Assembly (NCBI RefSeq): GCF_030419005.1
Contig: NZ_CP106951.1
Coordinates: forward strand, 4,898,001 to 4,962,000
Length of the DNA: 64,000 bases
Direction: 5' to 3'
From: Eleftheria terrae
GTDB lineage: Bacteria; Pseudomonadota; Gammaproteobacteria; Burkholderiales; Burkholderiaceae_C
The stretch's first letter is position 1. Each line of letters opens with the position of its first letter. This document shows, piece after piece, positions 39,126 through 42,546 of this stretch. The notes under the pieces are model-generated. The model saw nothing but the letters and a program-made list of their open reading frames with translations, did no database searches and was not told the DNA's origin. The position numbers and the translations under genes were made by a program.

Positions 39126-41054
39126 ATGACGAGTCGCGACGACTCCGAAGAACGGGCAAGGCGCCGCAGCCTGCGGTCCATCCTGGACGACAAGGAAATG
39201 CGGGTGGAGCTGCAGCGGCGCGCGGCCGAGAGCGAGCTGGGCGGCCTGTGGGACGTGGACACCGGCACGCTGGCGTCCTTGCTGGAAAACCCGGAGCCCG
39301 AAGAAGCCTTCAAGAGCCGCCCGTTGTCCGAGGCGATCGTGCGCGCCATCGCGCGGCCCGTGTTGATGGTCGAGAACGACCGGGTGACCCTGCCGACACG
39401 CTCCGACGTCATGTCGCGCCGGGTGCGCAAGTACCGCGAAGCCTTCGAGCCGGCCCTGCCTTCGGTGGGGCGTGTCGAGCTGGTCGGCCACCCGGCGCTG
39501 GAGTGGGTAGGTACCGGCTGGATGATCGAGGAAGGCGTGGTGGTGACCAACCGCCATGTGGCTTCGGAGTTTGCACGGCGCGATGCGACCGGCATGGGTT
39601 ATGTCTTCATCCGCAACCAGGGCGGCGCCGAAGTGCTGCCTCGGATCGACTTCCGCGAGGAGTACCGCTCGGTCGTCGCGGCCGAGTTCCGCATCGAGAA
39701 GGTGCTCTATATCGCGCCGCACAGCGAATCCGCCCCTGACGTCGCCTTCCTGCGGGTGGTGGCCGAGCCGGGGCTGCGACTGCCGCCGCCGATCGAGCCG
39801 GTCGAATCGGTGGCCCGCAACCTGCGGCAGCGCCGCTTCATGGCAGTGGTGGGCTACCCCGCGCGCGACAGCCGCAGCGACTCGCGGCTGGTGGACCGCA
39901 TCTTCGGCGACATCTACGACGTGAAGCGGTTCTCGCCAGGCGAGGTGATGACGGTGGACCACGATGCCTGGTTCTTCGAGCACGATGCGACCACGCTGGG
40001 CGGGAATTCAGGCAGCGTCATCCTCGACATGCAGACCGGCAAGGCGCTGGGCTTGCACTATGCCGGCGCGCATCGCAAGGCCAACTACGCGGTGCGCATC
40101 GACACGGTGCTGGAGATGCTGCGCGCCGCCAAGGGTCGCACCTGGGTCGGTGGTGCGCCGCTGCACACCCAGCTGCAGGAAAAGACGCGCCCGGCCGCCA
40201 GCTATGTGGCGCCCGGCTATGACGAGCGCTTCCTGGGCCCGCGCGTGCCGCTGCCCAAGCCGGCCAAGACGGCGCTGCGCGAGGACCTGCTCAAGGTGGG
40301 CGAGGGCGCCGACCCCTGGCGGCTGGACTACACCCACTTCAGCGTGCGCATGAGCAGCTCGCGCCGGCTGCCGATGGTGACCGCGGTCAACATCGACGGC
40401 AGCTCGAGGCGCAAGCTCTCGCGCAAGGGGCAGGTCTGGTTCTTCGACTCGCGCATCGACCGCCGGCAGCAGATCGGCAAGGAGTTCTACGGCCCGACCA
40501 GCTTCGACCGCGGCCACATGGTGCGCCGGGAAGACCCGGTGTGGGGCGAGCCGGACGAGGCGGCGCGTGCCAACGAGGACACCTTCCACTACACCAATGC
40601 CGCACCCCAGATGCCGGGCCTGAACCAGCGCGAATGGCTGGAGCTGGAGGACTACGTCCTCGACAACGCCGACGCGCTGGATCTGAAGGTGTGCGTCTTC
40701 ACCGGACCGGTGTTCGCCGCCGGCGATCCGGTGATCCAGGACGTGCAGGTGCCGTTGCGGTTCTGGAAGGTGGCGGCACTGGTCACGGCCGACACCGGCG
40801 AGCTGAACTGCGCGGCCTACCTGCTGACCCAGGAAGACATGCTGGCCGAGGCCTTCCACTACGGCCGTTTCAAGACCTACCAGGTGCCGCTGGCCGATGT
40901 GGAGGCTCTGACCGGCATCGGCTTTGGCAAGGCGCTGCGCGATGCCGACAACTTCGCGCTGCGGCAGCAGGACGAGTCGGTGCCCACCTGGTCGCCGGGC
41001 ATCCAGATCTACCGGCCGGAAGACGTGCGCTTCCCCCGCCGCCGCAGCGGCTGA
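39126..41054 (+). CDS. Trypsin-like serine protease fused to NUC1 endonuclease
   Basis: 642 residues, no signal peptide, so presumably cytosolic. An N-terminal charged helical segment of about 100 residues leads into a chymotrypsin-fold protease whose triad can be read as His144 (VVTNRHVA), Asp205 (APDVAFLRV) and Ser295 (LGGNSGSV). The second half is a DNA/RNA non-specific endonuclease of the NUC1/EndoG family with catalytic DRGH at 461-464 (His464) followed by TNAAPQMPGLNQREW. Both active sites look intact. It starts after AGGGAG, and the membrane gene begins 8 bp after its stop. The fusion suggests a toxic effector held inactive until proteolysis, but this is inference. It is likely the degradative arm of the Kiwa-like system that follows. 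Confidence 0.85.
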   Translation: MTSRDDSEERARRRSLRSILDDKEMRVELQRRAAESELGGLWDVDTGTLASLLENPEPEEAFKSRPLSEAIVRAIARPVLMVENDRVTLPTRSDVMSRRVRKYREAFEPALPSVGRVELVGHPALEWVGTGWMIEEGVVVTNRHVASEFARRDATGMGYVFIRNQGGAEVLPRIDFREEYRSVVAAEFRIEKVLYIAPHSESAPDVAFLRVVAEPGLRLPPPIEPVESVARNLRQRRFMAVVGYPARDSRSDSRLVDRIFGDIYDVKRFSPGEVMTVDHDAWFFEHDATTLGGNSGSVILDMQTGKALGLHYAGAHRKANYAVRIDTVLEMLRAAKGRTWVGGAPLHTQLQEKTRPAASYVAPGYDERFLGPRVPLPKPAKTALREDLLKVGEGADPWRLDYTHFSVRMSSSRRLPMVTAVNIDGSSRRKLSRKGQVWFFDSRIDRRQQIGKEFYGPTSFDRGHMVRREDPVWGEPDEAARANEDTFHYTNAAPQMPGLNQREWLELEDYVLDNADALDLKVCVFTGPVFAAGDPVIQDVQVPLRFWKVAALVTADTGELNCAAYLLTQEDMLAEAFHYGRFKTYQVPLADVEALTGIGFGKALRDADNFALRQQDESVPTWSPGIQIYRPEDVRFPRRRSG

Positions 41055-41062
41055 CGCCGGCC

Positions 41063-41611
41063 ATGAAGCTGCGTTTCTGGCCCTCGCTGTTGATCTTCGC
41101 CAGCTCCTACTTCCCGCTGGCCTTGATCATCCTCGTGAAGGACCTCGATGCCACCAGCTTCCTGCCGCAGCACCCGCGGCTGGCAGCCGCGGTGGCGGGG
41201 AGTGCTGCGCTGTGCCTGCTGGCGCTGTTCTTCGCGGTGCGGTCCATCCCTGACGGGCTGCCGGTGCAGGTGACCAAGGTCAGCAACAAGTCGGGGGAGC
41301 TGTTCGCGTACACCATCCCCTACATGATTTCCTTCTACAACTTCAACCTCGGCGACTGGCGCACGCTCCTGTGCCTGGGCCTGTTCCTGGGCATGTTGTT
41401 TGCGCTGGCCTATCGCACGCGCAATGTCCTCGTCAATCCGGTGCTGGGACTGGCCGGCTACGGCCTCTATGACACGCAGTTCAAGGAAGGCGCGCGCGAG
41501 CGCCAGGGCCTGCTGCTGTCACGCACCGAGTTCCGTGTCGGAGATCGTTGCCATGTGACGCGACTCTCCAACTTCCTCTACTTCGTCAAGAAGGTTGAAA
41601 CCGAAGCATGA
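41063..41611 (+). CDS. KwaA-like multi-pass membrane protein
   Basis: 182 residues. Hydrophobic helices are visible at about 6-26 (LLIFASSYFPLALIILV), 38-59, 84-99 (TIPYMISFYNF) and 98-137 in one or two passes, giving four to five membrane segments, with a short soluble tail. Length, topology and position directly before a DUF4868 gene match KwaA of the Kiwa anti-phage system, which senses phage attachment at the envelope. Similarity is judged from architecture, so identity with KwaA is not proven. Its stop overlaps the next start (ATGA). Confidence 0.7.
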   Translation: MKLRFWPSLLIFASSYFPLALIILVKDLDATSFLPQHPRLAAAVAGSAALCLLALFFAVRSIPDGLPVQVTKVSNKSGELFAYTIPYMISFYNFNLGDWRTLLCLGLFLGMLFALAYRTRNVLVNPVLGLAGYGLYDTQFKEGARERQGLLLSRTEFRVGDRCHVTRLSNFLYFVKKVETEA

Positions 41612-42546
41612 AGATGGCCGACTCGCCGCAGTACAAGCTTGCCGCGCTGCAACACACCGACTGGAAGCACGCCACCACCACGCTGTGGGTGGTCAAGCGT
41701 CGCCTGGTCGACCGCCGGGCCCGCTACGAGGTGCTGGGCGTGGACATCGACGAGAAGCTGCAGGCGAAGCTGCATGGCGAAGTGGTACAGCTGCTGCAGC
41801 AGCCGCTGGAGAGCATCCCCTATGAATTCGTGTCCGAAGACCAGGACGAGCGGGTCTTGACGCTCGAGGCCGAGGACACCGACTTCCCTGCCATCGAGCA
41901 ACAGGTCGCCCGCGGGCTCGACGCGCCTCGTGCACAGCACATCGACGACCTGCTCAACGCCTGGTGCTATGTGGTCTGCCTGCAGACCCGCGAGCGTTCG
42001 CTCTACGCGGTGAAGAAGACCGCGGTGCAGAGCAGCACCCGCCGCGTGCGCGGCCTGCGCAACCTGCTCTGGGAGGGCCACATGCTGCTCGACCTCGACG
42101 AAGGCCAGGTATTCACGCTGGCCAGTGGCTTCGACTTCCTCGCCGGTGACGGCGAAGTGTTCATCTTCAGCAAGCGACAGTTCGAGAGCGCGCTGAACTT
42201 CCGCCTTGGCATGGAGCGGGTGCGCGACACGGTGCTGCAGGAGCTGGAGCAGGCCGGCATCTTCGTGGACGTGGCACCGCTGCGGGAGGCAGTGGGTACC
42301 AGTCTGCCGCGCCTGCGCCGCATGTCGGCGCTCGACCGAAGCGGCTACTACCGCGATGCGCGCTTCATGCAGCGACTGCTCGAACTCAACGAGCAGGAAC
42401 AGTGGGGACTGGAGGTGCACGAGGGCCGCATCGTCGTCGACGAGCACAACGTCGACACCGTCCTCTTGCTGCTCAACAACGGCCGGCTGCGCTCGCCGGT
42501 CAACGACGAGACCTTTGACGCGCTGGTCAAGAAGAAGATCGATTGA
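41608..42546 (+). CDS. DUF4868 protein, KwaB-like
   Basis: 312 residues, soluble. The middle segment [40 protein letters not shown] and the end [20 protein letters not shown] fit the DUF4868 family, which defines KwaB. KwaB partners KwaA at the membrane and inhibits phage DNA replication or late expression. The start overlaps the kwaA-like stop, so expression is coupled. The KwaA/KwaB gene order and protein sizes fit the known two-gene Kiwa system, here with an upstream protease-nuclease. Confidence 0.8.

Follow-up and report, generated by a model that had tools for sequence, protein, structure and literature searches.

A candidate three-gene Kiwa variant with a protease-nuclease fusion in Eleftheria terrae

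The Kiwa defense system is characterized by a KwaA tetramer that assembles with KwaB dimers at the membrane, by DNA binding and by protection against phages. According to its published description it has two components, of which KwaB binds DNA without cleaving it (PMC12904381). LypC, which belongs to LypABC, a CARD-NLR-like system found in Caulobacter crescentus, consists of an N-terminal trypsin-like peptidase and a C-terminal endonuclease connected by a flexible linker (PMC13236601), and the NucA-trypsin systems described as 'System 3' by Kaur et al. (2020) are predicted to be deployed through a proteolytic cascade (PMC7159879). In Hachiman and Avs a nuclease of the metallo-beta-lactamase (MBL) fold is activated by proteolysis, and trypsin-like proteases that switch on nucleases were acquired by unrelated systems (PMC12799240). 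Here we describe a locus of Eleftheria terrae in which kwaA and kwaB are preceded by a gene encoding a protease-nuclease fusion protein. The locus lies in a stretch of 64,000 nucleotides (contig NZ_CP106951.1, positions 4,898,001 to 4,962,000 of the forward strand), hereafter called the window, to which all coordinates refer.

The three genes are arranged head to tail on the forward strand at positions 39126-42546 and occupy 3.4 kb in total. The first gene (39126..41054) encodes the 642-residue fusion and is followed, after a gap of 8 bp, by the gene for the 182-residue membrane protein KwaA (41063..41611), which shares a 4-bp ATGA overlap with the gene for the 312-residue KwaB (DUF4868/PF16162; 41608..42546). 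The gene sizes and both spacings agree with those reported in an initial annotation of the window, as confirmed by the open reading frame coordinates.

On the basis of sequence comparison, the products of the second and third genes are divergent Kiwa proteins. KwaA matches the PADLOC model PDLC00215 (E 1.1e-54) and, by sequence, two KwaA chains of solved structure (9o0i, E 5.3e-5; 9mrg, E 7e-5). It has about three hydrophobic stretches (residues 5-28, 38-68 and 98-119), as in a KwaA-like multi-pass membrane protein, and no family for it was found in the Pfam library scanned. KwaB, encoded directly downstream of kwaA, matches PADLOC PDLC00235 (E 1.2e-114) and Pfam PF16162 (E 1.8e-24; 87.2 bits, with the family cut-off at 26.3). 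Its predicted structural model has a mean predicted local distance difference test score (pLDDT) of 83.9, and a fold comparison with the PDB gave six matches at E <= 0.001, all of them from KwaB or KwaA-KwaB entries, at a template modeling score of ~0.5 and 10-12% identity; the KwaB profile reached solved KwaB with an E value of only 0.0017. We consider both proteins divergent members because they score below the NCBIfam equivalog cut-offs (52 versus 100 bits for KwaA, 25.6 versus 200 bits for KwaB). The earlier assignment of these genes as a KwaA-KwaB pair, including the DUF4868 match of KwaB, therefore held in profile searches and in the comparison with solved structures. Searches for KwaA-like proteins gave 133 matches (the 120 listed have about 50-91% identity and are labeled PF28043) versus only 17 for KwaB; for many of the KwaA-like proteins KwaB may be too distant to be found, or KwaA may have another partner.

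The fusion protein contains a Trypsin_2 domain (residues 129-310, E 3.4e-13) and an Endonuclease_NS domain (residues 399-606, E 1e-49). An N-terminal helical part (~1-113) precedes the trypsin/V8-like protease, which is connected by a linker to the nuclease domain, and a profile search of the PDB with the protein identified EndoG/NucA nucleases and glutamyl (V8-type) endopeptidases as relatives. The protease residues are H144, D205 and S295, and the nuclease residues are D461-R-G-H464, N491, N500 and E508; each presumably plays the catalytic role familiar from its family. The window protein was aligned with 58 of the 120 matches listed (3020 were found), and D205, S295, D461, H464, N491, N500 and E508 are retained in all 59 sequences, while H144 is retained in 58, with one gap. 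In the predicted model (mean pLDDT 86.2, predicted template modeling score 0.56) a low-confidence linker at ~339-347 separates the two domains, consistent with a flexible connection between them. Sequence analysis detected no export signal, membrane segment or hydrophobic stretch, and only 2 cysteines are present; thus, the fusion is probably a cytoplasmic nuclease, which must be kept silent. With both domains in one polypeptide and intact catalytic residues, it is not a new kind of protein, since Caulobacter LypC and the predicted NucA-trypsin conflict systems show the same architecture.

We searched nine genomes of the genus with the fusion and KwaB. The full-length fusion was found in four of them (G000, G888, G891 and G892) and KwaB in five. 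In all four carriers of the fusion, kwaA and then kwaB follow directly behind it, and the kwaA and kwaB genes overlap by 4 bp. The fusion and kwaA genes also overlap by 4 bp in two carriers, and are separated by 8 and 56 bp in the other two. Among the carriers we estimated the ratio of nonsynonymous to synonymous substitution rates (dN/dS) by a simple counting method and obtained values of about 0.21-0.30 (fusion), 0.12-0.33 (kwaA) and 0.22-0.33 (kwaB). These values are similar to those of the flanking genes for a LysR regulator and a flavodoxin-like reductase (0.18-0.30), and all three genes are thus under purifying selection. The short monooxygenase gene on the left flank was excluded from this comparison due to its erratic values (about 0.06-0.38, dS up to 3.6).

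An empty version of the site was identified in another genome of the genus, G129 (locus L135). Its left side contains, in the same order, genes for pirin, the flavodoxin-like reductase, LysR, a helix-turn-helix (HTH) regulator, a cytochrome P450 and the monooxygenase (72.7% identity); the last of these is separated by ~65 bp from the gene for an 81-residue protein (80% identity over 50 residues), with none of the three cassette genes in between. The corresponding stretch of the window, from the end of the monooxygenase gene to the beginning of the gene for the 81-residue protein, spans 38997..42595 (forward strand). No match to the fusion or KwaB was detected anywhere in the G129 genome. On the right, synteny reaches one gene only, as the examined G129 stretch yielded no counterpart of the histidine kinase gene that comes next in the window. 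Since the empty site lacks exactly these three genes, they were gained or lost as one cassette, although the two directions cannot be told apart. The same gene order in all four carriers, together with the empty site, led us to reject the explanation of chance neighbors, and it is well supported that the three genes form one evolutionary unit. The tight coupling of the protease-nuclease to kwaAB proposed in the initial annotation is borne out by the same observations. They also bear on the possibility that the fusion serves a household function and owes its place before kwaAB solely to its arrival in the cassette. The full-length fusion is missing from five of the nine genus genomes, and it arrives or leaves with kwaAB; both facts speak against such a role. 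On the other side, a 49% identical relative from Pseudomonas aeruginosa belongs to a cluster of 1388 member sequences, and one P. aeruginosa record (L036:5824-7752) carries a 642-residue fusion relative, which we take to be PA1327, next to ilvA, a placement that looks core-like; this gene may be the one that encodes the cluster relative. We consider the household explanation very improbable.

Kiwa is described with two genes only, whereas the cassette of all four carriers has a third gene, and for this reason we call it a Kiwa variant. We propose that the locus represents a clade-restricted three-gene form of Kiwa that acquired a protease-gated nuclease as its third, effector component, and assign this reading a probability of roughly 0.5. 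In the light of the LypC, NucA-trypsin, Hachiman/Avs and Kiwa papers, the most economical reading is that Kiwa controls either a protease-gated nuclease or a killing arm. KwaA in the membrane and KwaB would form the Kiwa sensor and DNA-binding complex, to which the cassette would have added a cytoplasmic protease-nuclease of the LypC/NucA-trypsin type whose nuclease is silent at rest. The three genes would be co-transcribed, and the fusion would be triggered by Kiwa through contact or signaling: assembly of KwaA-KwaB on an injecting phage genome would activate the protease, which would probably cleave the flexible linker in cis (at about residues 335-363), or else cut another target. The freed nuclease could then degrade DNA at the injection site or throughout the cell, and the cassette would have antiphage activity.

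Several observations weigh against this proposal. The flanking genes are syntenic in all four carriers, thus the carriers represent one inherited event rather than four. A further genome of the genus, G889, possesses Kiwa (kwaA and a KwaB with 35% identity) without the fusion. Outside the genus, we analyzed 34 other kwaB loci with their flanks (27 genomic and 7 plasmid-borne) and found neither fusion domain in any of them at an E value of 1e-3; upstream sequence was available for 33, all except L085. KwaA was recognized in 30 of the 34 loci. Three matches in this set are weak (G691, under the family cut-off, and G946 and G1151, with E values above 1e-4), and two genomes were left outside it, G440 for a match under the family cut-off and G997 for its position at a contig end. 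Conversely, neither kwaA nor kwaB occurs in any of 22 loci related to the fusion, which comprise 10 plasmid loci with flanks of ~5-6 kb, 2 viral-contig loci (6 kb) and 10 loci with short flanks (~1.5 kb). By profile, nine of these 22 loci contain both domains, five the protease alone and eight the nuclease alone; the two domains share one open frame in eight of the nine, and the remaining one is split over several frames. Moreover, full-length LypC made no contact with its partners in two-hybrid assays (PMC13236601).

These surveys speak for the main rival explanation, namely two independent defense modules, an ordinary Kiwa and a stand-alone protease-nuclease, that moved together in one cassette. 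The separation is complete in both directions, and the two-domain protein stands among metabolic genes in P. aeruginosa and Paracoccus records. However, the empty site shows a cassette of only these three genes, the fusion gene and kwaA overlap, stop to start, in two of the four carriers, and all four carriers keep three intact genes under similar constraint. We regard independent modules as a serious possibility, held at clearly less than even odds. In a second alternative the protease is the working part: activation of Kiwa would lead to cleavage of a host protein and to death or lysis of the cell, and the nuclease would be structural or secondary. In LypC, which has the same layout, the S296A substitution abolishes lysis and H471A and N505A do not (PMC13236601); by analogy, since the protease serine is essential there and the nuclease residues are dispensable, the protease may be the active part here as well, contrary to our proposal. 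Against this stands the retention of the nuclease residues in all 59 aligned sequences, an argument for a role of the nuclease in this branch, and we find this alternative improbable.

The union of the fusion with Kiwa is thus rare and, on the evidence of these locus surveys, limited to one genus. The fusion does occur beside kwaAB in three further genomes, so the refutation named in the initial annotation does not apply, although these genomes belong to one genus and reflect one event; at the 34 other kwaB loci it was not found. The general statement that Kiwa usually has a third gene is rejected on the same count. KwaB was detected in 2 of 150 genomes of the family, 10 of 330 of the order, 8 of 369 of the class and 13 of 398 of the phylum (the counts include the own genome, and the genome sets overlap), and in 9 of 72,556 plasmid records. 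Two of the nine plasmid records are outside the 34 loci and have the same identity and E value as included ones. The fusion query matched 26 of the 150 family genomes and 38 of the 369 class genomes; among the matches listed for the family and the class, only that of the own genome spans the whole query. The plasmid search with the fusion matched 111 records, of which 40 were listed and 10 were examined with flanks. In viral contigs the fusion alignment found two loci with the protease part only, and the KwaA alignment found none. A scan of genome contigs with the fusion, which was not exhaustive as it missed a known carrier, returned three loci; two of them are carriers, and the third is a fragment from Actinomycetota that matches just the protease part.

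Other proteases were observed at two of the Kiwa loci. In Paraburkholderia terrae plasmid pPT70 (L042:4397-6836) kwaA-kwaB is followed after 144 bp by a lone gene for a 265-residue trypsin-like protease, which in PADLOC best matches the LmuA, RT-Protease and HamA models. Upstream of the locus are a type II methyltransferase gene and a gene with a weak match to a restriction enzyme. At L069:5929-8890 an IetS-like subtilase gene is followed by kwaA-kwaB and then by a type III methyltransferase gene. Both are single cases in crowded defense loci and were not counted as support. Kiwa loci L108-L111 and L080 are located near genes for type I restriction-modification, nucleotidyltransferase or AAA_13 domain proteins.

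The immediate neighbors of the three genes in the window are, on the left, a gene for an antibiotic-biosynthesis-type monooxygenase (ABM; 38652..38996, forward strand; PF03992, E 6.4e-20) and, on the right, the gene for the 81-residue conserved protein (42596..42841, forward strand), which is Pfam-negative at 1e-5 and present in 9 of the 150 family genomes; both lie outside the system. In seven loci of other genera that contain the gene for the 81-residue protein, the monooxygenase was not found within ~1.5 kb of it. A PADLOC scan of nine flanking genes (1e-5) revealed no clear defense gene: the HTH regulator matched Csa3 models, the histidine kinase gave weak matches, and the other genes gave none; judged from these nine genes, the site is not a defense island. 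No sigma-70-like promoter was found in 38600-43100. A stretch TGTTACC(A/G)GG(A/T)GAAA upstream of the fusion gene (window 38997-39125) is common to three of the four carriers and is a possible promoter or regulator site. The cassette ends share no repeat longer than 7 bases.

A second pairing, beyond the genus, is hinted at by the distant fusion P0107 and the distant KwaA protein P0250, for which the longest contigs have exactly the same length of 22,619 bp. We compared the longest contigs of 119 of the 120 listed fusions with those of the 120 listed KwaA proteins and found three common values, 159,347 and 6,476,147, which belong to known carriers, and 22,619. The expected number of chance coincidences is ~0.65 over all lengths (nearly all of them short contigs), 0.03 above 10 kb and 0.005 above 20 kb. 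P0107 is far from the window clade in the fusion tree, and no match to P0250 was found in phage records. Equal size is not identity, and the coincidence is an indirect hint. It is conceivable, although rather doubtful, that KwaA-KwaB serves as an inflammasome-like membrane platform that activates a protease-nuclease zymogen at the injection site, and that such effectors were acquired more than once.

In the studied system Kiwa blocks phage DNA through binding, without cutting it. If our proposal is true, its membrane sensor can be linked to an effector that destroys, and Kiwa joins Hachiman and Avs among the systems that acquired a nuclease-protease. The cassette is compact, with three genes in 3.4 kb, and can be tested directly. 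No description of this three-gene form of Kiwa was found in the literature searched, which is weak evidence since most subscription papers and all bioRxiv preprints were not covered. The suggestion of an undescribed variant in the initial annotation can be kept for the three-gene arrangement; the fusion itself is a kind of protein already known from LypC and from Kaur et al. (2020).

Compared by description, LypC residues S296, H471 and N505 occupy nearly the same positions as S295, H464 and N500 of the fusion (PMC13236601). The partners are different: LypC acts with a CARD-containing protease and an NLR-like ATPase, whereas the window fusion is accompanied by KwaA and KwaB. We did not file the system as LypABC, because the neighbors of the fusion are the ABM monooxygenase, kwaA, kwaB and the gene for the 81-residue protein, with no CARD protease or NLR-like ATPase among them. 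A likeness to LypABC is seen in a Paraburkholderia relative of the fusion, which stands behind genes for a trypsin-like protein and an AAA_16 ATPase. The NucA-trypsin systems similarly combine a NucA/Endonuclease NS nuclease with a trypsin-like peptidase, sometimes fused; their partners are EAD proteins, STAND NTPases and further peptidases, and Kiwa, KwaB and DUF4868 are not mentioned in the accessible parts of that paper (PMC7159879). In the Hachiman, Avs, Lamassu and DRT pairs, an MBL-fold nuclease has its own gene and a defense enzyme carries the protease as a fusion, whereas the nuclease of the window is an Endonuclease_NS domain fused to the protease; the accessible text on these pairs does not mention Kiwa (PMC12799240). 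With Kiwa itself the locus shares both genes and the kwaA-kwaB order, and it differs in the preceding protease-nuclease gene and in its divergent KwaB.

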